From positions 3,736,666 to 3,800,665 of the forward strand of contig KV440964.1 of the NCBI GenBank assembly GCA_001636495.1: a DNA stretch of 64,000 nt, in the 5' to 3' direction. The stretch is from Sutcliffiella horikoshii (GTDB lineage Bacteria > Bacillota > Bacilli > Bacillales > Bacillaceae_I). The notes beneath the pieces are model-generated. The model was not told where the DNA came from. It ran no database searches and saw only the letters and a list, made by a program, of their open reading frames with translations. Positions 41,970 to 61,005 of this stretch are shown piece after piece (the first letter of the stretch is position 1; the number at the start of each line of letters is the position of its first letter). A program made the translations under genes and the position numbers.

Positions 41970-43391
41970 TTAAGCGCCTTTTTTCTCTGCGCTTGCCGAA
42001 TCATCTTCCCAGCATTCTGTATTCTTCAATCCTTCAATGTTACTCGCATAGAATACAGGATCTTTCCCTTCTTTACGCTGCTTTAAATAGTCCTTCAGCA
42101 CAGCTAGGGCAATTTTTCCGATAAAGGCCAAAGCCACAAGGTTGGTAATGGCCATTAATGCCATAAACAGATCTGCCATGTTCCACACCATGCTTAAGCT
42201 TGCAACAGAACCGAAAATGATCATGCCAAGCACCGCAAATCGGAAGACCATGATAGCCACTTTGCTTTCTTTGATGAATTCAATATTAGACTCACCATAA
42301 TAGTAATTTCCGATGATGGAACTGAAGCAGAATAGCAAGATGGCAATGGCGATAAAGATGCTTGCCCATGGTCCTACATGTTCTGCTAGGGCCACCTGTG
42401 TTAATTGAATTCCCTCCATCTCCGCTCCACCAGGAATGCCTGCAAGCAGAATGATGAACGCTGTTGCACTACAGATTAGGATGGTATCTACGAATACTCC
42501 AAGTGTCTGGATGAAACCTTGCTTGGCAGGGTGACTAACATCCGCCGTTGCTGCTGCAACCGGAGCACTACCCATACCGGCTTCGTTGGAGAATAATCCA
42601 CGTTTGACACCATTCATGATCGCAGCCCCGATACCACCGGCTACCGCTTCGTTCAATCCAAAAGCACTGGAGACAATGACACCAATCAATCCAGGAATTT
42701 CTCCAATGTTCAATGCAATGACATAGAAAGCCAGCAATAAATAAGAAACGGCCATAACCGGCACGACAACTTGTGAAACTTTTGCAATCCGTTTAACTCC
42801 CCCGAAAATGACTAATGCTACTATCGCCGTTAGGACAAGTCCCAGTGCCAAGCGGTTCACTCCGAATGCTTCATGGAATGCGACTGTGATGGTGTTCGCT
42901 TGAACAGATGTAAAGGCCAATCCGAAACAGAACGTGATCAGGACCGCGAAAAGGATCCCCATCCATCTTGCTCCCATCGCTTTTTGCATATAGTAGGCTG
43001 GTCCACCTTTAAATCCGCTCTTATCCTTCACTTTATACACCTGTGCAAGTGTACTTTCTATAAAGCTTAAAGATGCGCCGAACAAGGCTACGACCCACAT
43101 CCAGAATACGGCACCAGGTCCGCCAAGGGATATGGCAATGGCCACCCCGGCAAGGTTTCCTGTACCAATTCGCGTTGCTGCACTGATACAGAACGCCCCG
43201 AAGGAAGATACCCTTTGTTTCGTTTCATTAGATGTTGGGCTTTCCTTTAAAAGCCGAATCATCTCCCCCAGCTGGGTAAACTGGACAAACTTTGATTTTA
43301 ATGAAAAAAAGATTCCAAGGCCAACCAATAATGCAATTAGAACGTATGACCAGAGAATATCATTACTCCACTCTATGATTGTGTCTATCAT
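41970..43391 (-). CDS. alsT: Sodium:alanine symporter AlsT (AgcS family)
   Basis: 473 residues from the ATG at 43391 (AGAGG upstream; GTG at 43400 overlaps it). About eleven membrane segments; the AgcS signatures GNLAGVAIAISLGGPGAVFWMW and GGPAYYMQKAMG are present, and NEAGMGSAPVAAAT is the substrate region. Imports alanine or glycine, sometimes glutamine, with Na+ or H+ at the cytoplasmic membrane. Codons continue in the standard frame with no anomalies. The 360-base region upstream holds its promoter and a weak cre-like sequence (43438-43451, two mismatches). Confidence 0.93.
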   Translation of the reverse strand: MIDTIIEWSNDILWSYVLIALLVGLGIFFSLKSKFVQFTQLGEMIRLLKESPTSNETKQRVSSFGAFCISAATRIGTGNLAGVAIAISLGGPGAVFWMWVVALFGASLSFIESTLAQVYKVKDKSGFKGGPAYYMQKAMGARWMGILFAVLITFCFGLAFTSVQANTITVAFHEAFGVNRLALGLVLTAIVALVIFGGVKRIAKVSQVVVPVMAVSYLLLAFYVIALNIGEIPGLIGVIVSSAFGLNEAVAGGIGAAIMNGVKRGLFSNEAGMGSAPVAAATADVSHPAKQGFIQTLGVFVDTILICSATAFIILLAGIPGGAEMEGIQLTQVALAEHVGPWASIFIAIAILLFCFSSIIGNYYYGESNIEFIKESKVAIMVFRFAVLGMIIFGSVASLSMVWNMADLFMALMAITNLVALAFIGKIALAVLKDYLKQRKEGKDPVFYASNIEGLKNTECWEDDSASAEKKGA

Positions 43392-43751
43392 GCTGTTCAC
43401 ACCTCTTCTGTTAGTTTCAACACAACACCTGTCACATTGGTAACGCTTCCAATATTTGTTTCCAATAAAAATATTTAATAGAAAAGCTTCAAAGTTTTCC
43501 TATTAAATACTTCTAATGAATTAATTATCCACTATTACAGCCCAGGAAGCATTAATCTACGGTGTTATATAATACTTTTATAACTTTATCACTATACTAA
43601 GATAGTTTCAATAATAATTACTGAATTAAATATTTTCGGTATTTTCAGACTAAATACCCTTTCACTATTTTTCGAATAATTTCATATTACCTTTCTTGCC
43701 AGAAATGGTTTATACTGAATCTACAATATTTGTTGGCGAGGAGGAGTTAAG

Positions 43752-43939: not shown

Positions 43940-43986
43940 GCAAAAAGCAGTATGAAAGGCTTAACTCGCCTATACATACTGCTTTT
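43940..43986. terminator. Bidirectional terminator between the small basic gene and the sigma-54 regulator
   Basis: AAAAGCAGTATG/CATACTGCTTTT, 12 perfect pairs with a long loop. Confidence 0.75.
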
Positions 43987-46081
43987 CCTTTGCCTTTTTC
44001 AACAAATTAAACCCTGCTTCTGTTATCCTCGTCCCTTGCCTTCCTCTTTTCTTTTCAATAAAGCCCATTTTCTCTAGTGTATTTAGCCTTAACCTCACCT
44101 GTTGCTCCGTTAAAGAGCGTTGACGCACTTTTGTTTCCGCAGAGATTTTTCTGCGACTTACCGAACCTTCCTTATTTTGCAGATAATAGAGGATTTCCAT
44201 CAGGTTCAACAATTCTTCTGTCAATTCTTGCTGATGAGTCCCAAGTGTCCCAAGCTGCGGGGTATTAATCACATTTCCATCGGAACTATCCATATCTAAG
44301 GCCCTTTCCTTTACCGTTTTTCGGCTTTGTTGAAAGAACCCTTCATTTGGTATATCGTCCTCTCTTATCAGATTGTTTTCACATACAGCGAGCATATAGT
44401 CGATGGTATTTTTCAGTTCGCGAATGTTTCCGTACCAATCATATTGCTTAAGCCTCTCCAGAACCTGCATTTCCAGTTTGATATGTTGCCTGCCACTTTG
44501 GTGAATGAAATGGGCAATGAGGTGCTCAATGTCTTCCTTCCGCTTACGAAGTTCAGGAAGCTGTAAAAATAGCACTTTTAAACGATGATACAAATCTTCC
44601 CTGAACTTCCCCTCCTCTATTAGGGCAAGGAGATCTTTATTGGTTGCCGCTACTATTCGTACATCCACTGGAATAATCTTGTTCCCTCCAATTCGCAGCA
44701 ATTCTTTTTCCTGCAGGACACGCAGCAACCTCGCTTGGACCTTCAAGCTAATATCTCCTATTTCATCTAAAAAAATAGTACCCCCATCGGCCTGTTCAAA
44801 GAGTCCCTTTCTGCCACCCTTTTTCGCTCCAGAAAACGCTCCTTCTTCATATCCGAAAAGTTCACTTTCCACCAGGTCTTCTGGAAGGGCGCTGAAATTA
44901 ACTGCCAAAAAGGGGCCGTTATTACGGGTCGAAGCGTTGTGAATGGAGCTTGCGAAGAGTTCCTTTCCAGTACCACTCTCCCCTTGGATCAGGATGGTTA
45001 ATTCCGTTTTGGCAAGCTTTCTGGCTATTTCCTTCGTTCTCTGCAATTCTGGATGGCTACCAATAATATCTTTGAAATTGTATTTCCCGTAGAACCCTCT
45101 TTTTACAAGCTCCCTTTTTAATTGCTTTTCCATTTCAATAGTTTCACTTGCATCCTTGAATGTGACCACAATGGTCCCTGCCGGATCAATCATAAAACGA
45201 TGAACCATATAGCTCATGGAGTTGATGGTAAAATAACCGTCCGCTTCCTCTTCCTGTTTGTTTATGATGAAATCATACAGCGTTCGGTCAGAAATAATAT
45301 CTCGAACATGCCTGTCCACCGCTTTCTTCATCGGCACTCGGAGAAAACGTTCCATAATTTCATTGAAAACTGTAACCCTTCCCATCTGATTAATGGCCAG
45401 GATCCCATCATTAACCCCATTTACCACCTTTTTTAGATGATCACTGATTTTATTGGCTTCTTGATTTGCAGCACCTAATCTCTTGCTCAATCTTGTAATC
45501 GTGCTTATGTATTTACTTGATACCTGGTCCTGTTTTTCTTCTAAAAGCCCCAACCTGTTTAGTATGGTAATAATGGTTGTAATATCTATGAGTCTCGGCC
45601 CGATATTAATGACTTCTTCCACATAAGGCGGAACAAGATCCAGTTCCCCAGGTGTAATGGCTATTTTTATTTTTTCCTCTTCTTTTTTCCCAGGAAAATA
45701 GGGTATCAATTGAAGATGGTTAATTCCTAGAATCTCAAAAGAAGATATCGCCTCCTGAACAGTTTCGGGGAAATCATTCACATAAAGTACCTTCTCCCCT
45801 TTTGCGACACTGTATATTTTTTCAATGTTAAGAAAATTAACGATACGCCTCGCTACTAATACTGTACAATTGTCTCCGATATAGGCTTGCGCTTCCTCCT
45901 CAATCAGATGGGAGGATAAAATAATTAGTTGGTTGTGAACCTTTGTCACTTTGTGGGCATCAACGGAATAGCTTCGTATTCGAATAAAATCTCCAATAAT
46001 TTCGTTCAATTGATTATCAAGCGTTCTTCTCGTTTCCTCAGATCCCGCCAATATCGTCAGTTCCCTTGCTTTGATCCCCAT
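43970..46081 (-). CDS. Sigma-54 enhancer-binding regulator with a winged-helix C terminus
   Basis: 703 residues from the ATG at 46081 (AGAGG eight bases upstream; GTG at 46090 is too near). An N-terminal sensory region of PrpR-N type (about 1-195), a PAS domain (about 215-320), then a sigma-54 AAA+ domain: Walker A GESGTGKE (about 367-374), GAFSGA loop in place of the usual GAFTGA (about 414-419), Walker B GGTIFLDEIGD (about 433-443). The C-terminal end lacks a Fis-type helix-turn-helix and instead has a winged-helix-like block (about 620-700, RQRSLTEQQVRLRLNTLEKMGFI). It should activate a -24/-12 promoter, most likely that at 55978-55993. A sigma-A promoter precedes it, so it can be made independently. 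Confidence 0.88.
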   Translation of the reverse strand: MGIKARELTILAGSEETRRTLDNQLNEIIGDFIRIRSYSVDAHKVTKVHNQLIILSSHLIEEEAQAYIGDNCTVLVARRIVNFLNIEKIYSVAKGEKVLYVNDFPETVQEAISSFEILGINHLQLIPYFPGKKEEEKIKIAITPGELDLVPPYVEEVINIGPRLIDITTIITILNRLGLLEEKQDQVSSKYISTITRLSKRLGAANQEANKISDHLKKVVNGVNDGILAINQMGRVTVFNEIMERFLRVPMKKAVDRHVRDIISDRTLYDFIINKQEEEADGYFTINSMSYMVHRFMIDPAGTIVVTFKDASETIEMEKQLKRELVKRGFYGKYNFKDIIGSHPELQRTKEIARKLAKTELTILIQGESGTGKELFASSIHNASTRNNGPFLAVNFSALPEDLVESELFGYEEGAFSGAKKGGRKGLFEQADGGTIFLDEIGDISLKVQARLLRVLQEKELLRIGGNKIIPVDVRIVAATNKDLLALIEEGKFREDLYHRLKVLFLQLPELRKRKEDIEHLIAHFIHQSGRQHIKLEMQVLERLKQYDWYGNIRELKNTIDYMLAVCENNLIREDDIPNEGFFQQSRKTVKERALDMDSSDGNVINTPQLGTLGTHQQELTEELLNLMEILYYLQNKEGSVSRRKISAETKVRQRSLTEQQVRLRLNTLEKMGFIEKKRGRQGTRITEAGFNLLKKAKEKQYV

Positions 46082-46097
46082 CTCCCACACCTCTATC

Positions 46098-46138
46098 TAT
46101 AGAAAAACACTGTCCTTTTTGGCAACAGTGTTTTTCTA
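46098..46138 (-). terminator. Terminator between iadA and the sigma-54 regulator gene
   Basis: On the minus strand AAAAACACTGT/ACAGTGTTTTT hairpin with a TTTTTC tail. It separates the catabolic operon from the regulator gene, which has its own promoter overlapping the iadA end. Confidence 0.75.
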
Positions 46139-46140
46139 CT

Positions 46141-46171
46141 ATTATAGCTTACTCGAATGTTCCTTTTACAA
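46141..46171 (-). promoter_or_regulatory. Possible sigma-A promoter of the sigma-54 regulator gene
   Basis: TTGTAA (46171-46166), 19-base spacer, TATAAT (46146-46141) on the minus strand. The hairpin at 46098 lies downstream of it, so the transcript may be attenuated. Confidence 0.4.
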
Positions 46172-47318
46172 GCAGTTTTTTATCCCACATCATTTTTTGG
46201 CCAAGTGCCATCACGGACTCAATCTCAAAGGAAGACTCATTCAAGATAACAAGATCCGCGTCCTTCCCGACTGTAATGGTCCCTTTAGAGGAGAGACGCA
46301 ATACTTTTGCGGGATTTTCCGTAATAACCCTTAACGCATCGGCTGGCCCCACACCTTGTTCCACGATGGCCTCCCTCACTTCCTTGTATAAGGAGGTAAC
46401 CCTTCCGAGCTGCAGGCCGATAAACTCTCCGTCCTCATCAAACTCCGGCAAACTTGCCTGGCCATCTGAGGAGAACGTAATCTGGCCGATCGGCACGCCT
46501 TGATCGAGCATCTCTTTCAAACCGACACTGCATTTTGTTTCTCCCTGTTCGATGAACTTTGCAATACTTGAAGTGGTAAAGTCCACAAAACCGCCTTTTT
46601 TCGCATGCGCAATTCCCGCTTCAAACAATTCGCGGTTACGGTTGATGTGTGTAGGCAAGAATTGACGAATAGGAATGTCCGTTTTTTCGATGACCTCATC
46701 AAGAATCGATAGCTTACTTGCACTATCTCCAAGGTGCATATTGACGATTCCCGCTTTTCCGGAAAGCATCCCACCTACACGGGCAGCCGCAGCAATTTTG
46801 GCAATATCCTCATAACCCGGCTGGGAGGAGCGGTGGTCAGCAATGGCTATTTCCCCGACTCCGATAATCTCTTCAATTAAAATAAGGTCATCTTCAATCA
46901 TTCCTGTCAGCGTTTTGACGGGAACCTGATAGGAGCCTGTGTGAACATAACAACTGATTCCCTCTTCCTTTAACGCTTTGGCTTTGGCTATAAGGCTGGC
47001 CATCGTCCTAGTTGTTCCATCTGTTCCAATGACACCCACAAGGGTCGTGATCCCGCCTTTAACAGCATCTGAAAGAACAAGCTCGGGAGTACGCGTTCGA
47101 TAGCTCCCTTCTCCGCCACCGCCCATGATATGGACATGATTATCGATAAACCCAGGTACAATAAGCTGACCAGTTACATCTAGCACTTCTACATGGGCAC
47201 TTTCTTCAAAATGTATGGAATTCTCTATTGCCGCAATTCTTTTATCAACAATCAGTATATCTTTTTTTCCTAGATAATCAGGACTGTAGACGGTCCCGTT
47301 TTTTAATAACTTAATCAT
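46149..47318 (-). CDS. iadA: Isoaspartyl dipeptidase IadA
   Basis: 389 residues, amidohydrolase superfamily; E. coli IadA has 390. Metal ligands His61 and His63 in DNHVHIMGGGGEGSY, His195 in NMHLGD, His224 in PTHINRN and Asp285 in FSSDG. The conserved GDSASKL and DHRSSQPG loops are also present. It hydrolyses beta-aspartyl dipeptides such as beta-Asp-Arg to aspartate and the second amino acid in the cytoplasm. AAGGAG lies ten bases before the ATG. Last gene of the sigma-54 operon, 28 bases after the cyanophycinase gene, which explains its role. Confidence 0.93.
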   Translation of the reverse strand: MIKLLKNGTVYSPDYLGKKDILIVDKRIAAIENSIHFEESAHVEVLDVTGQLIVPGFIDNHVHIMGGGGEGSYRTRTPELVLSDAVKGGITTLVGVIGTDGTTRTMASLIAKAKALKEEGISCYVHTGSYQVPVKTLTGMIEDDLILIEEIIGVGEIAIADHRSSQPGYEDIAKIAAAARVGGMLSGKAGIVNMHLGDSASKLSILDEVIEKTDIPIRQFLPTHINRNRELFEAGIAHAKKGGFVDFTTSSIAKFIEQGETKCSVGLKEMLDQGVPIGQITFSSDGQASLPEFDEDGEFIGLQLGRVTSLYKEVREAIVEQGVGPADALRVITENPAKVLRLSSKGTITVGKDADLVILNESSFEIESVMALGQKMMWDKKLLVKGTFE

Positions 47319-47346
47319 AGTAAGAAGTCTCCTTCAGTTTTTCATC

Positions 47347-49728
47347 CTATTGAACCCATAGTGATAATCTAATATTGGTTATGGTTCCTTTTTTATAAGG
47401 AGCCAAGGCGTCAGCCATATAATCTATATCACTTTGGTAGTATTTAGAATCATCATCTTTTGCCCATTGTACCGCAAAAACCGGGTCAGATGCAGTACCT
47501 TTTACAGTGGTCACTTGTTCTGAACCTGTACTTTTTGCAAAAGATAACAAGGATTTGGTAGATTCATAGTCTCCACCGAATAGATTAGAGCTATGATAAA
47601 GCGTGTCTTCACTTCGATCCACTTCTTGTTTATTCTCAGCAGGGATGACTTCTTTCGTGTTCATGTTGAAGGTATCCCCCTCAGTCAGGTGGTGCACAAT
47701 GATGTTTTCAACTTCAAAACCTGGGGCAACACCCTTTGCATTGAAGTTGGCGCTACTTGCATCGAGAATCCATACCCCATTTTCACCTACCACTTTTCCA
47801 ACATTATCTTTAACTTCTATTGCTGTACCTTCGTCTAAACCAAAACCTAGTTCATGACCGGTATCACGCATCGCGACAAGCAGGCGCCCCAATCTCCCAC
47901 GCTCATCAAAGTGCGTGTCAGTCAAGACATTCTCAAAAAGGCCAAGTCCAGGAATTTGAAAATTATTCCCTTCCATACTTGGGTCTAGAAAGCCAGTTGA
48001 TGGGACATCAGCGATGGTTTTCACTTCCGTATCGTTGATGACTAACACTTCAAAACTCCTTCCAACCCCAAACATCGGGTCACTCATCACATGTGCCCCT
48101 GCACTTGTCCCAGCTACCACACCGCCTTGGTCATAAACATAGTTGATGGCTTCGAGGAGCGGAGTCGCTCTTCCATCATCCTCAAGCAACGACCGTGCAT
48201 GCTTCATCTGATCTCCACCCTGAAGCATCACTGCATGACTGCTTTTCACAAGATTGACGAAGTAGTCGTCATAGGCAACAAAATCAAATGTGTCTATCGC
48301 CAACGGAATATAAAGCGGTTCAAAGCCTCTGTTGCTAAACTCGGTTTCGAGCGCCAGATAAGGTCCATCATCAAGGTGGAAGTAGTCATATGCAACGTCA
48401 ACGGAATCTCTGGAACTATTAAAAATGGCTATTCGCGGGCGTGCGACACCGGTTGCTTCGCGGATTGCGTCATAGTATTCATCCGTAGCACCGGTTGCAC
48501 CACCTGCAGGCAACAGAGCTCCTATCCCGTCCCCGATTGTCTCTAAAGGTATCGGCATAGAGTTTGTATTGATCATCTTAAGGGACTTACTAGATCCAAG
48601 CACTTTTTCTTCACTTACCGCTGTCACATAGGCATAGTACAACTCACTGCCTAGTGTGTCACCCTCCATCGTTTTTTGATTATTCATAAATGAAACACGG
48701 TCATTTCCAATCTCATCTAGCGAAAATAACTTTCCTCTATTCTCTCGTTCCAACGCTTCAAGAAATGCAATATTTCCATCATTTATTAGAGGTTCCACTA
48801 ATTTTGTCAATCCTTTGGAAGAGTAAAACAAGAAATAGTGAGTAATCTTTTCATCATCTGCTGGTTCGAATGTCACTGAATAGTTTCCTATTTCCTTCCC
48901 GCTACCCAACAATTCCACGTTGGTAGGGTAAGCCATGATACTGATGGTTCGATCCGCCTCTGTCATTCCTAATACTCCATTCTCTCCAAGGGTCGCAGCG
49001 TACGCATAGTAATCACCTACATCTAACGCTTTTCCTGTAATTACATCCCGCTGTCCAGAACGAAAGGTATTTCCTCCTCCATCTGCGTAGCTAAGGTTGG
49101 ATATTTTAAAGAGTTTATTTTTGTTCTCCCCTTCTGTCTGTGAGGTGAGATGTTGATCTATTTGTTCGGGAGTCAACCCCTTCATATAATCCCAGACGTC
49201 GTAAAAGCTCTCTTTTGAATAGAAAATCAAATATGCTTTAACCCCGTCCATCACATCTGCCTTCAAAAAACCTAACTGATAATCTTGGATGACGGAACCA
49301 TCTCCGTTTTGAAAAAGGGTAACATCCTTTAAATCATAATCCGGACCCTTTTCAACAAATAAGGTGTAGGTATCTTTTTCACCTTTGGGAGTGGAAATAT
49401 TAATTTGCACCCTCTCTTTAGTTGAAAGCAATTTTACCATCACTTGCTTTTTATGGTTCACTTTTTCTCCATTTACTGCAACTTTTGCATTTACTGCTAA
49501 TGGAGTAATCGTTAATAAAAACTGGTCTTCATTGGTTTTTACTTGATATTCTTTTGTTTCCCGGCTGAATTCACCTTCCAATTGTCCATTATGGACAACC
49601 AACTTCTTCAAATCCGTATTATGGACATGGGAAGGTTTTGAATAACCGGTGGTTGTAGGAAATAATAAAGCACCACACAATAAGACAACTAGCAACTTTG
49701 TTAAACGCGTCCACCGCTTTCTGAACAT
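47347..49728 (-). CDS. Secreted cyanophycinase (S51 serine peptidase family)
   Basis: 793 residues. Signal peptide (about 1-28), a cadherin-like beta-sandwich (about 38-125), two further beta-rich modules (about 130-270 and 275-385), then the catalytic domain (about 395-690). It shows the cyanophycinase signatures GGDQMK (504-509), nucleophile elbow GTSAGA with Ser542, His606 in DTHFDERGR and Glu633 in GLDEGTA; the tail after about 690 is beta-rich. It is far longer than cytosolic CphB (about 270 residues) and belongs with the extracellular CphE type. It cleaves multi-L-arginyl-poly-L-aspartate outside the cell to beta-Asp-Arg. GGAGG lies seven bases before the ATG; the gene overlaps the ABC ATPase gene by 28 bases, so translation is coupled. 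Confidence 0.9.
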   Translation of the reverse strand: MFRKRWTRLTKLLVVLLCGALLFPTTTGYSKPSHVHNTDLKKLVVHNGQLEGEFSRETKEYQVKTNEDQFLLTITPLAVNAKVAVNGEKVNHKKQVMVKLLSTKERVQINISTPKGEKDTYTLFVEKGPDYDLKDVTLFQNGDGSVIQDYQLGFLKADVMDGVKAYLIFYSKESFYDVWDYMKGLTPEQIDQHLTSQTEGENKNKLFKISNLSYADGGGNTFRSGQRDVITGKALDVGDYYAYAATLGENGVLGMTEADRTISIMAYPTNVELLGSGKEIGNYSVTFEPADDEKITHYFLFYSSKGLTKLVEPLINDGNIAFLEALERENRGKLFSLDEIGNDRVSFMNNQKTMEGDTLGSELYYAYVTAVSEEKVLGSSKSLKMINTNSMPIPLETIGDGIGALLPAGGATGATDEYYDAIREATGVARPRIAIFNSSRDSVDVAYDYFHLDDGPYLALETEFSNRGFEPLYIPLAIDTFDFVAYDDYFVNLVKSSHAVMLQGGDQMKHARSLLEDDGRATPLLEAINYVYDQGGVVAGTSAGAHVMSDPMFGVGRSFEVLVINDTEVKTIADVPSTGFLDPSMEGNNFQIPGLGLFENVLTDTHFDERGRLGRLLVAMRDTGHELGFGLDEGTAIEVKDNVGKVVGENGVWILDASSANFNAKGVAPGFEVENIIVHHLTEGDTFNMNTKEVIPAENKQEVDRSEDTLYHSSNLFGGDYESTKSLLSFAKSTGSEQVTTVKGTASDPVFAVQWAKDDDSKYYQSDIDYMADALAPYKKGTITNIRLSLWVQ

Positions 49729-50720
49729 GAGGATACCTCCATTTTTTCAGTTTTCGCAGAATACAAGTGACATGCAACGTGGTGACCATCTGAGTGTTCC
49801 AACAACTCCGGGCGGTCGGTGTGACAGCAAGGCATTACTTTCGGACATCTGCCCACAAACGCACAACCTTTAGGTGGATCCACCGGAGAAGGCACATCGC
49901 CTTGAAGAATGATTCTTTCCTTCCGATTTCTAGGGTTGGATATTGGAATGGCATCAATCAATGATTCTGTATATGGATGAAGCCTGTTCTCAAAAATCTT
50001 ATCCGCCTCTCCTATTTCTACGATTCTACCTAAATACATTACTGCCACCCGGTTGCATAAATGCTGGACTACACTCAAGTCGTGCGAGATAAATAGATAC
50101 GTCAGTCGGAATTCTTCCTGCAAATCCTTTAATAGATTTAAGATTTGGGCTTGGATGGATACATCAAGAGCCGCGACGGGTTCATCGGCTATGATCAATT
50201 TCGGCTTCAAAATAAGGGCACGGGCTATTCCGATCCTCTGCCTTTGACCACCTGAAAATTCATGAGCATACCGGTGGAGATAGGTCTTGTTAAGACCGCA
50301 TACCTCCATGATATCTTCCATCAGCTTACGTCGTTTGCTTCGCTCTATCCCATGTGCCTTTAACGGTTCAGCTAAAATCTGTTCTACAGTCAGTCGGGGA
50401 TTAAGGGAGGCATAGGGATCCTGAAATACCAGTTGCATTTCTTTTCGCATGCTACGCATCTCTTTTGCCGAAAGTTCCTGTAAGCAATCCCCTTGGAACA
50501 GCACTTCGCCTTCCGTTGACTTTATAAGCTGAGCAATCCCTCTTCCCGTTGTCGATTTACCACAACCGGACTCCCCGACCAATCCAAGCGTCTCCCCTTC
50601 TTTTATTGAAAAGGAAACATTGTCTACTGCCTTTACATAAGAAGCAACCTTTTGTCTTATCCCTTTTTTTATCGGAAAATATATCTTAAGGTCCTTCACT
50701 TCTAATAACGGTTCCCTCAT
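49701..50720 (-). CDS. Oligopeptide ABC transporter ATPase, DppF type
   Basis: 339 residues. Walker A GESGCGKST (residues about 49-57), LSGGQ-type signature FSGGQRQRIGIARAL, Walker B LIIADEPVAALD, and the C-terminal oligopeptide_ABC tail with CAFVGRCPKVMPCC cysteines that in related ATPases binds a Fe-S cluster. It drives peptide import on the cytoplasmic face. The ATG overlaps the DppD-type gene end by four bases. Second-last ABC gene of the operon. Confidence 0.93.
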   Translation of the reverse strand: MREPLLEVKDLKIYFPIKKGIRQKVASYVKAVDNVSFSIKEGETLGLVGESGCGKSTTGRGIAQLIKSTEGEVLFQGDCLQELSAKEMRSMRKEMQLVFQDPYASLNPRLTVEQILAEPLKAHGIERSKRRKLMEDIMEVCGLNKTYLHRYAHEFSGGQRQRIGIARALILKPKLIIADEPVAALDVSIQAQILNLLKDLQEEFRLTYLFISHDLSVVQHLCNRVAVMYLGRIVEIGEADKIFENRLHPYTESLIDAIPISNPRNRKERIILQGDVPSPVDPPKGCAFVGRCPKVMPCCHTDRPELLEHSDGHHVACHLYSAKTEKMEVSSCSESGGRV

Positions 50721-51700
50721 ACGGTTACACTCCTATCTGCATGGAGCCAGCAACGGCAGGAATGTCCTTTGTCTATTTCAAAGAGCTCCGGGTCCTCTTC
50801 TCTGCACAATGGAATCGCCTTACTGCAGCGATCAGCAAAACGGCAGCCCTTTGTAATCGTCCCTGCCAACGGAACCTGACCGGGTATGGATCGCAGCCGA
50901 TCGCGTTTTTCCCCAAGTTTTGGAATCGACTCTAAAAGTCCAATCGTATAGGGGTGCTTTGGATTATTAAACAATGTATCTACATCCGTCTCCTCAACAA
51001 TCTCTCCTGCATACATGACAATCACCCTGTCACACATTTCAGCAATCACTCCTAAATCATGGGTGATCAGCATGATGGCCGTATCGGTCTTCTCTTTTAA
51101 ATCTTTCATCAAATGCAGGATCTGCGCCTGGATGGTGACGTCCAACGCTGTCGTCGGTTCGTCCGCTATCAACAGCTTCGGCTGACAGGCAAGACCCATC
51201 GCAATCATCACTCGCTGGCGCATCCCACCTGATAGCTCGAACGGATAGGCTTCATAAATCTGCTCCGGACGTGGAATCCCCACAAGCTTTAGCATGTCTA
51301 TCGAGCGTTCCCGTGCCGCTTTTTTAGAAATGTCATTATGTAAAAGCAACACTTCGTCCAATTGCTTTCCAATCTTAAAAACAGGGTTTAGGGAAGTCAT
51401 CGGTTCCTGAAAAATCATGGAGATCTCATTCCCTCGGATTTTACGCATCTCTTTCTCTTTCTTTTTCAACAGATCTTCTCCTTGATAATGTATGGAGCCC
51501 CCTGTAATCTTACCTGGAGGGGATGGCAGCAGCCGCATGATGGATAGGGACGTGACACTTTTTCCACAACCTGATTCCCCTACAATCCCTAAGGTTTCTC
51601 CTTTATGAACATCAAATGATATTCCGTTTACCACCTTCAACTGTTTTCCATCACTTTTGAAGCTAACCTCTAATTCTTTTATTTTAAGCACTTTTTCCAT
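50717..51700 (-). CDS. Oligopeptide ABC transporter ATPase, DppD type
   Basis: 327 residues from the ATG at 51700 (AGGAGG eleven bases upstream; GTG at 51712 overlaps it). Walker A GESGCGKSV, signature [15 protein letters not shown], Walker [13 protein letters not shown] and the C-terminal Cys loop CRFADRCSKAIPLC. Paired with the DppF-type ATPase, one for each nucleotide site. The next gene upstream ends 15 bases away. Confidence 0.93.
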   Translation of the reverse strand: MEKVLKIKELEVSFKSDGKQLKVVNGISFDVHKGETLGIVGESGCGKSVTSLSIMRLLPSPPGKITGGSIHYQGEDLLKKKEKEMRKIRGNEISMIFQEPMTSLNPVFKIGKQLDEVLLLHNDISKKAARERSIDMLKLVGIPRPEQIYEAYPFELSGGMRQRVMIAMGLACQPKLLIADEPTTALDVTIQAQILHLMKDLKEKTDTAIMLITHDLGVIAEMCDRVIVMYAGEIVEETDVDTLFNNPKHPYTIGLLESIPKLGEKRDRLRSIPGQVPLAGTITKGCRFADRCSKAIPLCREEDPELFEIDKGHSCRCWLHADRSVTV

Positions 51701-51715
51701 CTCTGTTGCCACCTC

Positions 51716-53275
51716 CTACTCTTTTAACTTCGGATCAAGTGCATCTCGCAATCCGTCTCCCAAAATATTAAAGCTAAGTACCGTAATCACAATCGCAAGG
51801 CCAGGGAAGAACGTTGGATGAAACACATTTCCGCTGTTATCTTTTGCCGCACTCAACATGGACCCCCATTCAGGAGCAGTAATGTCTCCTCCCAATCCGA
51901 GGAAACTTAGTGCTGCTCCAATCAAAATCGCCACCCCAATCCGCATCGTCAAATAGACAATCACCACAGAAAGGGTGCCAGGAAAGATATGCCTCATGAT
52001 GATGACGCGATCCTTCACGCCTATCGACTGTGCCGCTTCCACATAGGTCATCTCTTTTAAAGCAAGGGTACTTCCGCGGACAATCCTGATAAAGATCGGA
52101 ATGGTAAACACCGCTACCGCAAAAATAATATTCGTTAATCCTGCTCCAAGGAAGGCGATTACGGCAATTGCAAGTAAAATCCCCGGAAATGCCAACAGAA
52201 TATCAGTGAAGCGGGTAATCAGATTATCAATCCTGCCTCCATAATATCCGGCAATCAACCCGAGCGTCGTTCCAATCACTGCACCAATCGCAACTGAAAC
52301 AAATCCGATCATTAGCGTTTCCCTTGTCCCCATGACCACCCTGCTGAATATATCCCTGTTCTGATGGTCCGTTCCAAAGAAATGAAGGGTGGATGGTGGT
52401 TGATGTTTATAAATATCTACTAAACTCACATCTGTGGACTCCGGTACAATTGAAACCAGCCTTGGCGTTATTTCTTGGACATCAATCGGTAGATGGACGA
52501 CAGTAGACACCATACCGGCATTGACCTGAACAATAGCGTCTCCTTGCCCTTTCAACGTCACAGTTCCTTCTTGAGCTACTGTTGCCAGTTCCTCATCCAG
52601 TGACAGGAATTGAACTCCTCCTTCACTCTCTTCAGAACTTCCCGCCGACACAAAACCGCTTCCCTGATTGGAACCTTGTTTTGCTTCTTGTCCATCCAAC
52701 AGGAAGCTTTCTATTTCATCTAGACCATGGATGGAGGTTCCATCGGAAAGAATTGCCTTTAACTGGACGGTATATCTATCCCCAATTTTCATTACTTCGT
52801 TCGGCTGTTCCGCCTCTATACGTAAAATGGTGGGTTCCACAGCTTCAGGGTCACTTGATACGCTCACACCAATCAGTGAACGGACCCCTTCACTTTCAAT
52901 GGTTGCATTAGTGGTGCCGGAAGTATTTGCCGTTAACGTCACGCCATTTGTTATTCTTCTAATGGAAGCAACTCTTCTATCTTCACTTTCCACCTTGACA
53001 TTCATTAATTCGGAGCCTGAAATGGTACTCCCATCACTAAGCACCCCATTTATCTCCACTCGTTGACTTGTTAGCTGTTCACTATCAATCCCTTTATCCT
53101 CATATTGCAATGTTACCGGCCGGTAGGGGTCGAACGGGGCAAGCCAAGAACCGAACACCCCAACCAACACAATGAACGCCACCACGATAAACGCTAGGAA
53201 CGCAAACCGTTGCTTGATGAATTTGTGGAGAAACACCTTGAAAGGAGAATACGAAGAATGCATTTTTTTGCTCAT
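51716..53275 (-). CDS. Oligopeptide ABC permease, DppC type, with a large inserted extracellular domain
   Basis: 519 residues, against about 300 for DppC proteins such as the one at 59733-60632. First membrane helix at about 23-45 ends in APFDPYRP (46-53); the next landmark of normal DppC, FGTDHQNRDIFSR, appears only at about 300. The roughly 215 residues between consist of two or three Ig-like beta modules, each with a short SDGS or SDGT loop (VEINGVLSDGSTISG, VQLKAILSDGTSIHG), resembling BIG_2 domains. The permease core (about 310-519) is intact: EAA motif region AAQSIGVKDRVIIMRHIFPG and C-terminal GDGLRDALDPKLKE. AGGAG lies nine bases before the ATG. Confidence 0.9.
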   Translation of the reverse strand: MSKKMHSSYSPFKVFLHKFIKQRFAFLAFIVVAFIVLVGVFGSWLAPFDPYRPVTLQYEDKGIDSEQLTSQRVEINGVLSDGSTISGSELMNVKVESEDRRVASIRRITNGVTLTANTSGTTNATIESEGVRSLIGVSVSSDPEAVEPTILRIEAEQPNEVMKIGDRYTVQLKAILSDGTSIHGLDEIESFLLDGQEAKQGSNQGSGFVSAGSSEESEGGVQFLSLDEELATVAQEGTVTLKGQGDAIVQVNAGMVSTVVHLPIDVQEITPRLVSIVPESTDVSLVDIYKHQPPSTLHFFGTDHQNRDIFSRVVMGTRETLMIGFVSVAIGAVIGTTLGLIAGYYGGRIDNLITRFTDILLAFPGILLAIAVIAFLGAGLTNIIFAVAVFTIPIFIRIVRGSTLALKEMTYVEAAQSIGVKDRVIIMRHIFPGTLSVVIVYLTMRIGVAILIGAALSFLGLGGDITAPEWGSMLSAAKDNSGNVFHPTFFPGLAIVITVLSFNILGDGLRDALDPKLKE

Positions 53276-53295
53276 AGATTTTGTCTCCTAACTTT

Positions 53296-54219
53296 TTAAT
53301 CGTATCTGATCTGTGGATTCAAGAACCCATAACTGATATCCACTAATAAATTGACTACTAGGAATTGAAAGGAGAAAAGTAAGATCAGTGCCTGAATGAC
53401 AGGGTAGTCCCTAGCAAGAATGGAATCCACCAGGTATGAACCTAGTCCTGGCCAGGCAAATACCTGCTCCACCACCACTGCACCCCCAATAAGAAAACCA
53501 AATTGAAGGCCAGTCATGGTCACCACTGGGATAAGGGCGTTCCTAAGTACATGGCTCCAGACGACAACCGATTCCTTTTGTCCTTTCGCACGCGCCGTTC
53601 TCACATAATCCTCTCTCATCACTTCAAGTACACTCGATCTCGTGAATCTTACAATGGTCGCCGCCACTCCAAACCCCAAAGTGATGGATGGCAAGAAAAT
53701 GTGGGCGAACGTACCACTTCCACTTGTCGGAAACCATCCGAGCTGTACGGCGAAGATCTGCATCACCATCAAACCGAACCAGAACTCAGGAACACTCAGC
53801 GCCGTAATCGCCGATACCATACCAAGGCGGTCCCACACTGTATTTCTTTTCGTAGCGGAAATGATCCCGACAAATATACCGATAAGAATGGCCCAGAACA
53901 TCGCTAGCATCGTCAGTGTGAACGTAAAACCAAAACGCCTCATAATCTCCGAGGACACTTCCGTTTTTGTCCGGTAGGAAGAACCGAAATCACCATGAAC
54001 CACCATGTTGTACATATAGTTTCCATATTGAATTAAGAGTGGTTGATCAAACCCTTCCTTCGCCCTCAAGTTCTGGTATGTCTCCTGATCCAGCTCCGCT
54101 CCGTACATGATGCGTATCGGATCTCCAGGTGTTAAATGAACAAACAAAAATGCGATAATCGTTATGATAAGTAAAATAGGAATCATGCCAATTATTCTTC
54201 TGACTGCAAATTGAATCAT
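53296..54219 (-). CDS. Oligopeptide ABC permease, DppB type
   Basis: 307 residues with six membrane segments. N-terminal RRIIGMIPILLIITIIAFL and HLTPGDP, then the permease EAA loop region RTARAKGQKESVVVWSHVLRN and the C-terminal DISYGFLNPQIRYD are typical of DppB. Works with the DppC-type subunit 20 bases downstream. 65 bases from the binding-protein gene, with an intercistronic hairpin. Confidence 0.94.
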   Translation of the reverse strand: MIQFAVRRIIGMIPILLIITIIAFLFVHLTPGDPIRIMYGAELDQETYQNLRAKEGFDQPLLIQYGNYMYNMVVHGDFGSSYRTKTEVSSEIMRRFGFTFTLTMLAMFWAILIGIFVGIISATKRNTVWDRLGMVSAITALSVPEFWFGLMVMQIFAVQLGWFPTSGSGTFAHIFLPSITLGFGVAATIVRFTRSSVLEVMREDYVRTARAKGQKESVVVWSHVLRNALIPVVTMTGLQFGFLIGGAVVVEQVFAWPGLGSYLVDSILARDYPVIQALILLFSFQFLVVNLLVDISYGFLNPQIRYD

Positions 54220-54242
54220 GCGGATTCACCTCTTTATAAAGA

Positions 54243-54280
54243 GTAGACTCATAGGTTTCATGCTTCCTATGAGTCTATTT
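54243..54280 (-). terminator. Intercistronic hairpin after the binding-protein gene
   Basis: AGACTCATAGG/CCTATGAGTCT, 11 perfect pairs, between the binding protein and DppB-type genes. The minus strand has no T run, so it more likely stabilises the upstream mRNA, giving excess binding protein; read from the plus strand it ends in TTTTTT. Confidence 0.55.
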
Positions 54281-54284
54281 TTTA

Positions 54285-55925
54285 TTATTGTTTTTCTACT
54301 AGATTCAGATGTACTCCACCTGAAGGCAGCACATAAATACCATTCACATCTTTCCCTTTTGCAATAATGGTGTCAGGGATATGTAGGAATACCCAAGGAG
54401 CATCCTCATAGATCTTCATTTGGATATCTGCATAGAGGGATAGAGCTTGATCTTGGTCTGGTGTACGAAGCGCATCATCAAACAATCCATCCAGCTCTTC
54501 ATTAATATAGAAGCCGGAGTTATTAAAGTTTGGTGGCACCCGGTCAGATGCAAAGTTCGGTCTTAAACCGTAATCCGCTTCTCCTGTACCTGGTGACCAG
54601 CGTCCAATCCAAAGATCTGTCTCTTCTCCAGCATCCAGCATGTCAAACAACGTTCCACTCTCAAATGCCTGTACTTCTACATCAATACCAATTTCCTTTA
54701 ACTGGATTGCTACATACTCAGCAACTGACACAAACTCTGTTGTGTTTCTCGTCCATAATGTCGCTTGGAACCCCTCTTCCATTCCAGCTTCTTTTAAAAG
54801 TTGCTTGGCCAGTTCTTTGTCATGCTCATACACACTTTGCCCTGCATAACCATAAACAGCAGGAGCGATGGCGGAATCTGCCACCTGTGCATATCCATCA
54901 GCAATCTGTGCAATAAGCCCATCTTTATCGACTGCATGGTTCATCGCTTGACGAACTTTGAGGTCGTTGTATTTTTCTTCTTTAAAATTCATTCCGATAT
55001 AGAAAACGTTCGTGGAAGAACCAACATATAAATCCACATTTTCTTCTTGCTCCAGTTCTTTGGCATTAAGCGTAGGGATTGGGAAAATCACATCGACTTC
55101 ACCAGTTTTCAGCTTATTGACACGCGTGCTGGCCTCTACAATCGGCAAGAAGGTGATGCTGCTTACTTTTGGTTGCTCTTGGTCATTCCAATAGTTTTCA
55201 TTTTTGGTGACAACCACTTGCTCGCTGTCCTTCCATTCCTGGAATTTGAACGGTCCGGTTCCTACTGGGTTGCGGTCCAAGTTATAGTCCGAATCTTCTT
55301 TTTTCTTTTTCAGTTCTTCCGGTGATTTGAAAGAAGCAGAAGAATGCGCCATATAGGAAGCCATAGCAGAGTTTGATTCTTCCGATTTAATGGTGATGCT
55401 GAATTCGTCGTTGACTGTTACTTCGCTGATAAAAGAGAAGAAGGACGCACGTGCCAAGCCATTTTCCGCATCTCTTACAAAATCCAAGTTTTCTTTGGCC
55501 ACTTCCGCATTAAAATCTGTTCCATCGTGGAACTTCACTCCCTGTTGCAGGGTGAAGGTGATTTCCGTTGCGTCTTCATTGAAGTTGAATTCCGTAGCCA
55601 GGACAGGAACAAGATTCATCTTCTCATCAAAACGCAGGAACCCTTCGAACATCGTGCTTTGAACGGTTGCAGAGTTACCGTCTGTGGAGTTAAATGGATC
55701 CAAGGACGTAGGTTCCGCTTCAATTCCGACTGTCAGTTCTCCATTGGCATCTGTTGTTTCTTCAGAGTTTGTATTTTCGTTGGAGTTTGTTTGATCTGGT
55801 TGCGAGTTGTTGCTGTTATTGCTCGTAGGGTTGGAACTACATGCTGCCAGAATGAGCAGACAGAGGATTAGTAAATACGATAGGAACCATGTTGCTTTGT
55901 TTTTCTTTTGTTTTTGCATTTGCAT
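54285..55925 (-). CDS. Peptide ABC transporter substrate-binding lipoprotein
   Basis: 546 residues from the ATG at 55925, with GGGGAG ten bases upstream; the open frame extends to 56009 but runs through the sigma-54 promoter. Signal peptide with lipobox LILAAC (lipid Cys at 29), an Asn/Ser/Thr-rich linker, then an SBP_bac_5 domain (TVGIEAEPTSLDPFNS, DRNPVGTGPFKFQEW). Captures peptides outside the membrane for the Dpp-type permease. First gene of the operon; given its downstream genes, the ligand is probably beta-Asp-Arg or other isoaspartyl dipeptides. Confidence 0.92.
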   Translation of the reverse strand: MQMQKQKKNKATWFLSYLLILCLLILAACSSNPTSNNSNNSQPDQTNSNENTNSEETTDANGELTVGIEAEPTSLDPFNSTDGNSATVQSTMFEGFLRFDEKMNLVPVLATEFNFNEDATEITFTLQQGVKFHDGTDFNAEVAKENLDFVRDAENGLARASFFSFISEVTVNDEFSITIKSEESNSAMASYMAHSSASFKSPEELKKKKEDSDYNLDRNPVGTGPFKFQEWKDSEQVVVTKNENYWNDQEQPKVSSITFLPIVEASTRVNKLKTGEVDVIFPIPTLNAKELEQEENVDLYVGSSTNVFYIGMNFKEEKYNDLKVRQAMNHAVDKDGLIAQIADGYAQVADSAIAPAVYGYAGQSVYEHDKELAKQLLKEAGMEEGFQATLWTRNTTEFVSVAEYVAIQLKEIGIDVEVQAFESGTLFDMLDAGEETDLWIGRWSPGTGEADYGLRPNFASDRVPPNFNNSGFYINEELDGLFDDALRTPDQDQALSLYADIQMKIYEDAPWVFLHIPDTIIAKGKDVNGIYVLPSGGVHLNLVEKQ

Positions 55926-55977: not shown

Positions 55978-55993
55978 TGCAAGAAACGTGCCA
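55978..55993 (-). promoter_or_regulatory. Consensus sigma-54 (-24/-12) promoter
   Basis: On the minus strand TGGCAC-GTTTC-TTGCA fits the consensus TGGCAC-N5-TTGCW at every position. It is 52 bases upstream of the substrate-binding-protein ATG at 55925 and heads the transport-cyanophycinase-IadA operon. Confidence 0.85.
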
Positions 55994-56023
55994 AAAATAG
56001 AATATTCAATATTTTTTTATTTT

Positions 56024-56200
56024 AATGGTGGTGGAGTATGGGATGTATGCAAACTTATGATGGTTTTATTGGGTGTTTTTGGGACGTTGGTTGATTATTG
56101 GGTTGATTTAGGTTATTTTGGGTTCTTTTTGGGTGGTGTTGAATTGGGTGGGCTAGTTAAAGGCTTAAATTGCACTGCTATTTTAGCGTGTTATGACTAA
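56024..56200 (+). other. G/T-rich noncoding stretch upstream of the sigma-54 promoter
   Basis: The plus strand from about 56028 to 56160 is almost free of C and A-poor, with repeated TTGGGT and GGGTTG words. It lies where enhancer sites for the sigma-54 activator would be expected. No clear operator or gene is seen. Confidence 0.4.
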
Positions 56201-56223: not shown

Positions 56224-56645
56224 TCATATGGTCTCTATGACACACGTTTTTCTATCTCCTCCTCCATTTCGCGTTTCATACAACCTCTATGACACGCGTT
56301 TTTCTCTCTCCTCACCAATTTCGCGTTTCATACAACCTCTATGACACACGTTTTTCTCTCTCCTCACCAATTTCACGTTTCATACAACCTCTATGACACG
56401 CGTTTTTCTATCTCCTCACTAATTTCACGTTTCATACAACCTCTATGACACACGTTTTTCTATCTCCTCACCAATTTCGCGTTTCATACAACCTCTATGA
56501 CACGCGTTTTTCTATCTCCTCATCAATTTCGCGTTTCATACAACCTCTATGACACACGTTTTTCTATCTCCTCACCAATTTCGCGTTTCATACAACCTCT
56601 ATGACACGCGTTTTTCTATCTCCTCACCAATTTCACGTTTCATAT
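56224..56645. repeat. Tandem array 3, exact 52 bp period, TCATA-N7-TATGA core
   Basis: TCATA starts at 56224, 56276, 56328, 56380, 56432, 56484, 56536 and 56588, exactly 52 apart; a ninth at 56640 is cut short. Each is followed by CAACCTC-TATGAC (the first TGGTCTC). Units alternate strictly between CACACG and CACGCG after TATGA. The array fills the gap between the first ABC operon and the second. Confidence 0.93.
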
Positions 56646-56740: not shown

Positions 56741-57754
56741 TTAATAATTCGTCTTCAATTGAGAGAAATCAACTGCTCCGTCTTCCACCAAGTGGCAAGC
56801 GGACTGCTGGTTGACACCAGAAATCGCATGAAGCTTCGGTTCTTCCGTCCGGCATCGATCAAAAGCGTACGGACAACGCGTATGGAAACGGCAGCCTGCA
56901 GGAGGATCGATTGGAGAAGGAACATCACCTTTTAAGATGATACGCTCTTTCTTTTTGCTAAGGTCCGTACTTGGAATCGCAGATAATAACGCTTTTGTAT
57001 AAGGATGCTGTGGGTTTGCAAAAAGGGCATCTTTATCCGCAATTTCTACAATTTTACCCAAATACATAACTATGATTCTATCAGAAATATGACGTACAAC
57101 CCCAAGGTCATGGGAGATGAACAGATACGTCAGGTTAAATTCACGTTGTAATCTTTTTAAAAGGTTCAATACCTGTGCTTGAATGGATACGTCCAATGCT
57201 GATACAGCTTCGTCACAGACAATCAACTTTGGATCCACGGATAATGCACGTGCAATACCAATACGTTGACGTTGCCCTCCACTGAATTCATGGGGATGGC
57301 GGTCAACCTGATGAGCACCGATTCCAACCGTTTCAAGTAATTCCACAATCTTTTTACGACGGTCTTTACGAGGCACTACGTTTTGGATTTCCAGTGCTTC
57401 CTCTAAAATGTCGCTTACTGTCTGACGAGGATTCAAGGATGCATACGGATCTTGGAAAATAATTTGTAGATCCTTACGTTTTTTCCTCATTTGAGACTTG
57501 CTTAATGCTAGTAAATCTTCCCCTTGGAAGCTAACTTCACCGGAATATGGATTATCCAGGCGAAGGATCGCACGGCCTGTCGTGGATTTTCCGCAACCGG
57601 ATTCTCCTACGATACTGACCGTTTCCCCTTCTTTGACGGAAAAGCTGATGTCGTCTACTGCTTTGACATGGTTAACCGTTCTTCCGAAGATGCCACCTTT
57701 GATAGGAAAGTATTGTTTAAGGTTTTTCACTTCTAATAATGTTTGATTACTCAT
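56741..57754 (-). CDS. Oligopeptide ABC transporter ATPase, DppF type (second system)
   Basis: 337 residues from the ATG at 57754; the frame opens at 57775 but [17 protein letters not shown] aligns with other DppF starts. Walker A GESGCGKST, signature FSGGQRQRIGIARAL, Walker B VCDEAVSALD and the C-terminal Cys motif CRFHTRCPYAFDRC. It overlaps the upstream DppD-type gene by eight bases. Powers peptide import. Terminator follows. Confidence 0.92.
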   Translation of the reverse strand: MSNQTLLEVKNLKQYFPIKGGIFGRTVNHVKAVDDISFSVKEGETVSIVGESGCGKSTTGRAILRLDNPYSGEVSFQGEDLLALSKSQMRKKRKDLQIIFQDPYASLNPRQTVSDILEEALEIQNVVPRKDRRKKIVELLETVGIGAHQVDRHPHEFSGGQRQRIGIARALSVDPKLIVCDEAVSALDVSIQAQVLNLLKRLQREFNLTYLFISHDLGVVRHISDRIIVMYLGKIVEIADKDALFANPQHPYTKALLSAIPSTDLSKKKERIILKGDVPSPIDPPAGCRFHTRCPYAFDRCRTEEPKLHAISGVNQQSACHLVEDGAVDFSQLKTNY

Positions 57755-58769
57755 GGCTAGCAGCAACCTCCTCATCTTCCCACTTATCTGTATAGATCCA
57801 GCAACGAACCTGATCTCCGTCTTCTGTTTCCTTTAAATCAGGCAGACTGCTTAGGCAAATATCCTTTGCATGCGGACAACGAGGAGCAAAGCGGCAACCC
57901 TGTGGTAGGTTGAATGGACTTGGCACAGATCCGTGAATAACGGATAGGTCCCCTTCTACATCCTGATCATGCTTTGGAACAGAGTTTAATAGTCCGACAG
58001 TGTACGGATGTTTTGGGCTTGAGAAGATGGTTTGAACATCTGCATATTCTACCACTTTTCCGCAATACATGACTGCAACCTTGTCACACATCTCAGCAAC
58101 CACTCCAAGGTCATGGGTGATTAGCATAAGCGAAGTACCAAGCTCATCTTGCAACTTTTTCATTAAGTCCAGAATCTGCGCTTGGATCGTTACATCTAAT
58201 GCAGTAGTCGGCTCATCGGCAATTAATAACTCAGGATTACAAGCTAGTGCAATCGCGATCATCACACGCTGACGCATTCCGCCTGAAAGCTCGAACGGAT
58301 ATTGTTTGGCACGTTTTTCAGGAGAAGGGATACCAACTAAACGTAGCATATCCACCGCCTTCACCCAAGCTGCTTTACGGCCAAGCTTTTGGTGAATACG
58401 AACAGATTCCGCAATCTGCTCCCCACAGGTCAATGTCGGATTCAATGAGGTCATCGGCTCTTGGAAAATCATCGAAACATTATTTCCGCGAATCTGCATC
58501 ATCTGTTTTTTTGTTTTATCTAAAAGGTTTTCCCCTTTGAAAATAACTTCTCCGCCCACTACTTTACCAACAGGCTCTTGAAGCAGTCGTAAAATAGATA
58601 GAGAGGTAATGCTCTTTCCGGATCCGGACTCCCCAACTATACCAAGCGTTTTCCCTTTTTCGATGGAAAAGTCCACACCATCAACGGCTTTTACTTCTCC
58701 TTCATCAGTAAAGAAGGAAGTACGCAAGCCTTTCACTTCCAATATTTTATCTTTCTTTGCAGTTGTCAT
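57747..58769 (-). CDS. Oligopeptide ABC transporter ATPase, DppD type (second system)
   Basis: 340 residues from the ATG at 58769 (a GTG at 58778 is possible). Walker [10 protein letters not shown], signature [15 protein letters not shown], Walker [13 protein letters not shown], Cys loop [14 protein letters not shown]. Close relative of the first system's ATPase. Fifteen bases after the permease gene. Confidence 0.92.
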
Positions 58770-58784
58770 TTTCTTCACCGTCCT

Positions 58785-59711: not shown

Positions 59712-59732
59712 GTTAGTTCACCTTCTTCTCCA

Positions 59733-60632: not shown

Positions 60633-60702
60633 ACGCTCTTCTCATCCCTTCATCTCTTTGTAACAAACTTAATATTTCAAAATATTCAACATAACTAGTA
60701 CT

Positions 60703-60731
60703 ATAATAGCTATTAATTCGTAATATTACAA
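60703..60731 (-). promoter_or_regulatory. Sigma-A promoter of the second ABC operon
   Basis: TTGTAA (60731-60726), 17-base spacer, TATTAT (60708-60703) on the minus strand. Confidence 0.65.
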
Positions 60732-60902
60732 TAGTTTTAAAGAGTCTTAGCATACTTAATTTTAAGATTAATAGATTTTTTCCATAGAATTACCTTTCAT
60801 TATATACAAGAAAAAATTAACAAAAACGTAATATTGAATGGCATTTCAACTTAAATTATTACAAAAATAATAAATTTGTTAAAATTTCTTGTAAAACAAC
60901 TC

Positions 60903-60931: not shown

Positions 60932-61005
60932 TATAAGCAATCGTGGCTTATCCATTGATTACAATCTTGTAACACAAACTAAAATCTTCAGGGGGGTAAT
61001 TTTAC

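Follow-up and report, generated by a model that had tools for sequence, protein, structure and literature searches.

A probable sigma-54-controlled unit for isoaspartyl dipeptide use in Sutcliffiella horikoshii, with a secreted cyanophycinase-type protein as its add-on

Cyanophycin is a nitrogen store of cyanobacteria, and how Gram-positive bacteria harvest this nitrogen-rich polymer is, to our knowledge, little studied. The question is raised by a block of seven genes at 46149-55925 of a 64,000-nucleotide stretch of the 4.26 Mb genome of Sutcliffiella horikoshii (contig KV440964.1, positions 3,736,666 to 3,800,665 of the forward strand; the whole stretch is referred to below as the window): is this a system for cyanophycin alone, or one for a wider class of peptides? 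The answer that the evidence favors is that the block is probably a sigma-54-controlled unit for the use of isoaspartyl (beta-aspartyl) dipeptides, extended here to cyanophycin by a secreted cyanophycinase. Gene families, catalytic residues, the promoter site, a conserved gene order, and a linkage, across genera, between the importer subtype, the activator and the hydrolases are established here. The components, with gene families assigned by Pfam and NCBIfam scans of the window's proteins, are:

55978..55994, minus strand: sigma-54 -24/-12 promoter, TTGGCACGTTTCTTGCA, the single exact match in the window
54285..55925, minus strand: lipoprotein solute-binding protein, SBP_bac_5 (nearest NCBIfam model GsiB, under its cut-off)
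53296..54219, minus strand: DppB/GsiC-type permease
51716..53275, minus strand: DppC/GsiD-type permease with an insertion, 519 residues
52406..53122, minus strand: the DppC insertion, residues 52-290, about 239 residues (profile, Pfam and alignment comparisons)
50717..51712, minus strand: DppD-type ATPase
49701..50720, minus strand: DppF-type ATPase
47347..49728, minus strand: secreted S51 cyanophycinase-type peptidase, 793 residues (also by motif alignment)
46149..47318, minus strand: IadA isoaspartyl dipeptidase (TIGR01975; alignment with solved IadA)
43970..46090, minus strand: sigma-54 activator, 706 residues, with an N-terminal domain of its own, an AAA+ domain and a winged-helix C-terminus (HTH_12)

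An initial annotation of this DNA had delimited the unit as the seven genes from the binding protein to iadA. All seven are open reading frames at their claimed positions on the minus strand, rightly named according to Pfam and NCBIfam, and the claimed gene overlaps are there (4 bp for DppD/DppF, 28 bp for DppF/S51); the S51 gene is separated from iadA by a gap of 28 bp. It had overlooked the DppC insertion and the gene for the activator. In the proposed mechanism, the activator would sense a signal through its N-terminal domain and turn on the promoter at 55994. The secreted S51 cyanophycinase would cleave extracellular cyanophycin to beta-Asp-Arg, the lipoprotein and a Gsi/Dpp-type ATP-binding cassette (ABC) importer, its DppC bearing an outward-facing immunoglobulin (Ig)-like insertion, would import dipeptides, and IadA would cleave these to Asp and Arg in the cytoplasm. 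The genes would be co-transcribed, and the ligand of the importer would be an isoaspartyl dipeptide.

The strength of this reading lies in conservation, surveyed in samples of the order (397 genomes) and of the class (398 genomes). An S51 match is found in 10 of the 16 genomes of the genus (S. horikoshii included) and is full-length in nine; the eight others in which it is full-length all preserve the order binding protein-DppB-DppC-DppD-DppF-S51-iadA-activator-agcS. The proposed sigma-54-linked unit, in which IadA and a peptide ABC importer go with a secreted S51 protein of cyanophycinase type, is upheld. (The spacing varies in G012, where the S51-iadA gap, at about 6342-6698 of L034, is about 350 bp versus the usual 30 or so.) The unit is also present in G159, a member of a different family, where no agcS match lies within the 18.5 kb read. 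Full-length profile matches to the inserted form of DppC are found in 17 of the 397 order genomes and in seven more among the 398 of the class, 24 in all. (The order search matched 33 genomes, reduced to 17 when weak matches, with E above 1e-6, in non-permease open reading frames of 700-2338 residues were dropped; G000 and G008 were recovered again in the class search and counted once.) Each of the 24 is a permease of DppC type, and the five-gene importer block around it is the same. The activator lies beside it in each of the 23 loci in which that side is visible (L110, which stops short of the activator, is excluded), and a hydrolase gene is present in every one of the 24: IadA in 16, an Asparaginase_II protein in five and an M20 peptidase in three.

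The distribution of S51 among these loci bears on the possibility that importer and regulator evolved solely for cyanophycin as a dedicated beta-Asp-Arg system. An S51 gene within the operon, with overlapping genes, and its presence in 15 of the 24 inserted-DppC loci (ten with IadA, five with Asparaginase_II) speak for a dedicated system. Against it, the 19.5 kb read at nine of the 24 (L094-L099, all order-level, and the three loci with M20) holds no S51 gene, and five of the six S51-less order-level loci (G044 being the exception) come from outside the 59 genomes with an S51 match at E<=1e-20. Moreover, beta-Asp-Arg is not a preferred substrate of an IadA taken from a cyanophycin cluster (PMC10206079). 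Dedication of the importer to beta-Asp-Arg, as the initial annotation had it, is not borne out, given the same importer subtype in the company of IadA or M20 but not of S51, and a system evolved for cyanophycin alone is unlikely. The cyanophycinase is an add-on to the unit. Since S51 is accessory, importer and activator are more likely to have isoaspartyl dipeptides at large as their class of ligand.

Control by sigma-54 is indicated by a TTGGCAC-N5-TTGCA element at 55994-55978, which starts about 70 bp before the start of the binding-protein gene. Allowing at most one mismatch, the window holds three matches where 0.87 would be expected; a single shuffle out of 100 reached at least three. Genome-wide, TTGGCAYN5TTGCW occurs at seven sites versus four for a reversed-pattern control, so that the motif taken on its own is weak and not significant. 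Its conserved placement across loci is strong evidence: 20 of 24 loci carry a strict site next to the start of the binding-protein gene, and TTGGCATN5[AG]TGCT takes its place in the other four. When 360-bp stretches were drawn at random from these loci, 163 of 20000 included a strict site. Of the six remaining sigma-54 sites of the genome, four (L078-L081) appear to follow an activator-like gene. With a -24/-12 element and a linked enhancer-binding activator both present, the operon would, judged by its sequence, be sigma-54-dependent.

The activator accompanies IadA well beyond this operon. Matches to its N-terminal domain (A4) occur, at E<=1e-15, in 111 of 368 genomes of the order, and in 78 of the 80 genomes for which both positions are listed the domain lies no more than 5 kb from IadA (median 2.8 kb; the 31 genomes with an activator match and no listed IadA position are excluded). 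The two unlinked cases are G159, which nevertheless has IadA beside the activator in L064, and G026, in which the activator match is weak. A profile of this domain found no match in the PDB at E<=1 and none in Pfam over cut-off. No description of a sigma-54 activator of such a unit was found in the literature searched, which covers few subscription journals. Candidate sites for its binding are tentatively placed upstream of the promoter:

56004..56174, minus strand: upstream region with candidate activator half-sites of ACCAA / AACAACC type, tentative

In the window's own promoter the half-site pattern has two matches versus 1.33 for shuffled sequence, and 81 of 200 shuffles do as well, which is not significant. 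Of 26 promoters of the system, 24 have at least one match, compared with none of five other sigma-54 sites of the genome, counts that refer to a pattern chosen after the sequences had been viewed, with L077 excluded (it lies inside another gene) and five of the nine Sutcliffiella promoters included. The pattern is not clearly above shuffles in L031, L064, L065 and L072 and has no match in L070 and L076. A shared inverted repeat was sought among the promoters and none was found (L110 gave no data).

IadA is the most securely identified of the enzymes, with 556.7 bits over its full length versus a TIGR01975 cut-off of 331.25 and an alignment with solved IadA. IadA exceeds the cut-off in 174 of the 397 order genomes; in G005 the operon's copy is the single match at E<=1e-80 among the matches listed. 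Other hydrolases stand in the same place in related loci. In G021, which has no IadA at E<=1e-80 among the matches listed, an Asparaginase_II protein (PF06089, 387.7 bits) occupies the iadA position, together with a divergent activator, the importer and S51, and Asparaginase_II genes lie between importer and S51 gene at L073:10418-11428, L107:5862-6947 and L108:6046-7074 (those of L110 and L113 were called by sequence likeness, without a Pfam scan). An M20 peptidase (confirmed by Pfam scan in L109 and L112, by sequence likeness in L111) takes the hydrolase position in three loci that have neither an S51 nor an IadA match. By their position, the PF06089 proteins are candidate new beta-Asp-Arg hydrolases. 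No description of such hydrolase swaps was found, no literature search having been aimed at them. Two short open reading frames between DppF and iadA, of 259 and 270 residues (L094:6592-7371 and L095:12744-13556), match only the start of Asparaginase_II, with scores of 26.7 and 18.0 bits, respectively (cut-off 25), and are possibly decayed or repurposed copies.

The S51 protein has the features that had been claimed for it, with GTSAGA at 540-545, His606 in DTHF and Glu633 in GLDE as its catalytic set, and an N-terminus that, judged by eye, resembles a signal peptide. Its S51 domain aligns with three solved cyanophycinase sequences (7uqv, 3en0 and 7uqw) and retains GGDQ, GTSAGA and the substrate-site motif D-x-HF-x2-R-x-R-x2-R (the Gln after Asp being Thr here). 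In this family, these residues serve catalysis and the substrate site. None of the three motifs occurs in the five other S51-match loci of the same genome. All five S51 proteins scanned from related loci exceed the TIGR02069 cyanophycinase cut-off (128-328 bits), and one that passes, L066:8641-9894, shares the DTHF variant of the window protein. The S51 domain is preceded by two repeats of about 115 residues, and the N-terminal region is cadherin-like (just under cut-off in the window, over it in G159). These likenesses suggest that the protein would act on cyanophycin.

The importer has all its parts by Pfam: an SBP_bac_5 binding protein, two BPD permeases and two oligo_HPY ATPases, of which DppF exceeds the PRK11308 cut-off (414 versus 408). 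DppC departs from the uninterrupted OppC/DppC form of about 240-300 residues; its length of 519 is due to the roughly 239 residues inserted after the first transmembrane helix. No NCBIfam permease model is passed by DppC, and none by the uninterrupted neighboring permease at 59733-60632 either; thus, these cut-offs do not discriminate for DppC. The insertion probably consists of two Big_2-like Ig repeats. With a Pfam cut-off of 22.8 for Big_2, the G021 insertion passes at 26.7 bits and is the only one of the five scanned to do so; those of the window (19.4), L094 (20.2) and L109 (21.2) fall just under, and that of L064 has no Ig match in Pfam. In the PDB, the best match of an insertion profile is the Hoc-like protein 7x30 (E 2.7e-6), followed by intimins (E about 0.003-0.004), an S-layer protein (0.012) and an alpha-galactosidase (0.027). 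Matches to picornavirus coat proteins (E 0.05-0.08) were taken as chance. Six relatives compared with the window's DppC are 73-82% identical in the insertion versus 97-98% in the permease core. The known topology of OppC/DppC permeases places the region after the first transmembrane helix outside the cell, and the insertion is therefore expected to face outward, where it may help the lipoprotein to dock or may hold polymer or enzyme close to the pore. This is unusual anatomy for an ABC permease and poses a clear structural question. No description of the inserted permease was found; as no literature search was aimed at it, no claim is made that it is unpublished.

A number of points weigh against the reading of a unit for isoaspartyl dipeptides extended to cyanophycin, to which the S51-less loci already described belong. 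Seven of the 16 genomes of the genus have no full-length S51 match and six of those have none at all. The window's S51 protein, at 115 bits (117.4 in the genome scan), falls just short of the TIGR02069 cut-off of 126.6, and its residue 605 is Thr, as against Gln in the solved enzymes. Its AlphaFold2 model is too poor to use (mean predicted local distance difference test score, pLDDT, 43.2), and a Foldseek search with it gave matches of low template-modelling (TM) score, several of them to FnIII domains, which are at most a hint for the middle part; the model of DppC is likewise too poor to use (mean pLDDT 31.7). The best NCBIfam models for the binding protein and both permeases are Gsi models, all under cut-off, and DppB passes only the cut-off of the nickel permease Opp2B (360 versus 350); an isoaspartyl ligand of the importer is consequently no more than putative. 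The operon iadA of G159 matches as two pieces in different frames near its start (L064:12395-13560) and may be broken or misread there; two further IadA copies lie elsewhere in that genome. Finally, two hairpins could divide the transcript:

54244..54277, minus strand: strong stem-loop between the binding-protein and DppB genes (-20.8 kcal/mol over a 66-nt stretch, z-score -6.66)
46099..46139, minus strand: hairpin between iadA and the activator gene, a possible terminator (z-score -4.46 for a 66-nt stretch)

The first of these may cause much more binding protein than transporter to be made; the second is absent from the terminator-scan list of the window.

Some of these points fit a different account, in which S51 is a generic aspartyl peptidase, the importer carries oligopeptides in general or gamma-glutamyl peptides (glutathione), and the unit serves another extracellular polymer or peptides at large. 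The glutathione-importer models and the sub-threshold S51 score are what such an account would lead one to expect, as is the nearest solved relative of the binding protein, YliB (1uqw). That isoaspartyl hydrolases are linked to the importer across genera, that S51 has the cyanophycinase-type substrate-site motif and that its relatives pass the cut-off all count against it, and it is judged quite improbable.

A further account would have the unit turn over the cell's own isoaspartyl polymer or spore material, made by CphA-like Mur ligases, rather than scavenge. Cyanophycin has been proposed as reserve and spore material in Bacillus horikoshii (PMC5532821), and the present genome has Mur-ligase-like CphA matches. 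However, the two best cover only positions 463-849, with 155.4 and 136.8 bits versus a cut-off of 850; the S51 protein looks secreted, and sigma-54 control and an importer suit an external supply. This makes turnover of an endogenous polymer very improbable. Synthesis of cyanophycin by the cell itself was rejected, there being no cyanophycin synthetase (CphA) over cut-off in this genome. The CphA-like Mur-ligase genes of L007, L008 and L011 (C1, near 3.03 and 3.35 Mb) match only the C-terminal half of cyanophycin synthetase.

The isoaspartyl dipeptide unit may be one form of something broader. In L066 and L071, activator and IadA are accompanied by a YfcC-type carrier (PF03606; over the NF008611 cut-off in L071, not in L066) in place of the ABC importer, as well as by a secreted S51 protein, and in L071 a sigma-54 site is found at both the carrier and the S51 gene. 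Several genomes encode secreted proteins of about 840 residues with two S51 domains in tandem (L069, L070, L075, L076 and L066:15002-17506). The double-S51 genes of L069, L070, L075 and L076 have a sigma-54-like site 150-222 bp before the first S51 match, and those of L066-L068 have none of their own. With doubt slightly outweighing confidence, one can tentatively sketch a sigma-54 regulon for isoaspartyl peptides that spans the Bacillales and has as yet no name. A single activator family, marked by an N-terminal domain of its own, would define it, and it would comprise two alternative importers (the YfcC-type carrier, or the ABC importer with an Ig-like domain at the DppC docking face), interchangeable cytoplasmic hydrolases (IadA, joined by PF06089 Asparaginase_II and M20 proteins, which would be beta-aspartyl dipeptide hydrolases of a new kind) and, optionally, secreted cyanophycinases, single or tandem-double. 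The linkage makes this regulon testable, with a single family of activators, an importer subtype that bears a mark and few candidate hydrolases. Isoaspartyl dipeptides are mostly discussed as products of protein damage; the distribution of the unit suggests that in many Bacillales they are a regulated external nutrient.

On the far side of the activator gene the unit is adjoined, here and in all eight other genus loci, by a gene whose membership is uncertain:

41970..43400, minus strand: AgcS sodium:amino-acid symporter

A second Gsi/Opp-type importer operon lies directly upstream, at 56741-62601 of the window (with a divergent binding protein at 61006-62601), and genes belonging to it are found upstream in all seven genus loci that cover that side (L032 starts too close). 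Between the two operons, at 56233-56644, is a 52-bp tandem repeat of 7.9 copies with 94% matches.

The general kind of cluster is already known. The cyanophycin utilization locus of strain L21-Spi-D4 (Ben Hania et al. 2017), as PMC10206079 describes it, likewise groups cyanophycinase, iadA and a transporter for external cyanophycin. The defining arrangement (these three clustered, no CphA1) is found here too, with an S51 protein under the TIGR02069 cut-off. For its part, the present locus is Gram-positive and has a Gsi/Dpp-type ABC importer with a DppC insertion, as well as a sigma-54 activator. A genome announcement of 2017 (PMC5532821) reports genes for cyanophycinase and isoaspartyl dipeptidase in B. 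horikoshii 20a, stated to be expressed, which are very probably orthologues of the present ones; it names the two enzymes only, without importer, activator, promoter or comparison. In view of these reports, the novelty suggested by the initial annotation, which knew of no described Bacillus unit of this makeup, is not borne out as worded. CphE-type enzymes such as CphEal of Pseudomonas alcaligenes (PMC3235067) are secreted cyanophycinases, as the present protein would be; the S51 protein described here, in contrast, has 793 residues, with extra domains before its S51 domain, and scores under the TIGR02069 cut-off. Escherichia coli K-12 independently pairs an isoaspartyl hydrolase gene with a Gsi peptide importer in iaaA-gsiABCD, where iaaA overlaps gsiA by 14 bp; its hydrolase, IaaA, is unrelated to IadA, and its importer is annotated as importing glutathione. 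The aot operon and CphZ of Pseudomonas aeruginosa are comparable in function, in that an ABC importer and a beta-Asp-Arg hydrolase together permit growth on the dipeptide, with an importer of amino-acid type and a hydrolase of an unrelated family in the places that the Gsi/Dpp-type importer and IadA hold here.

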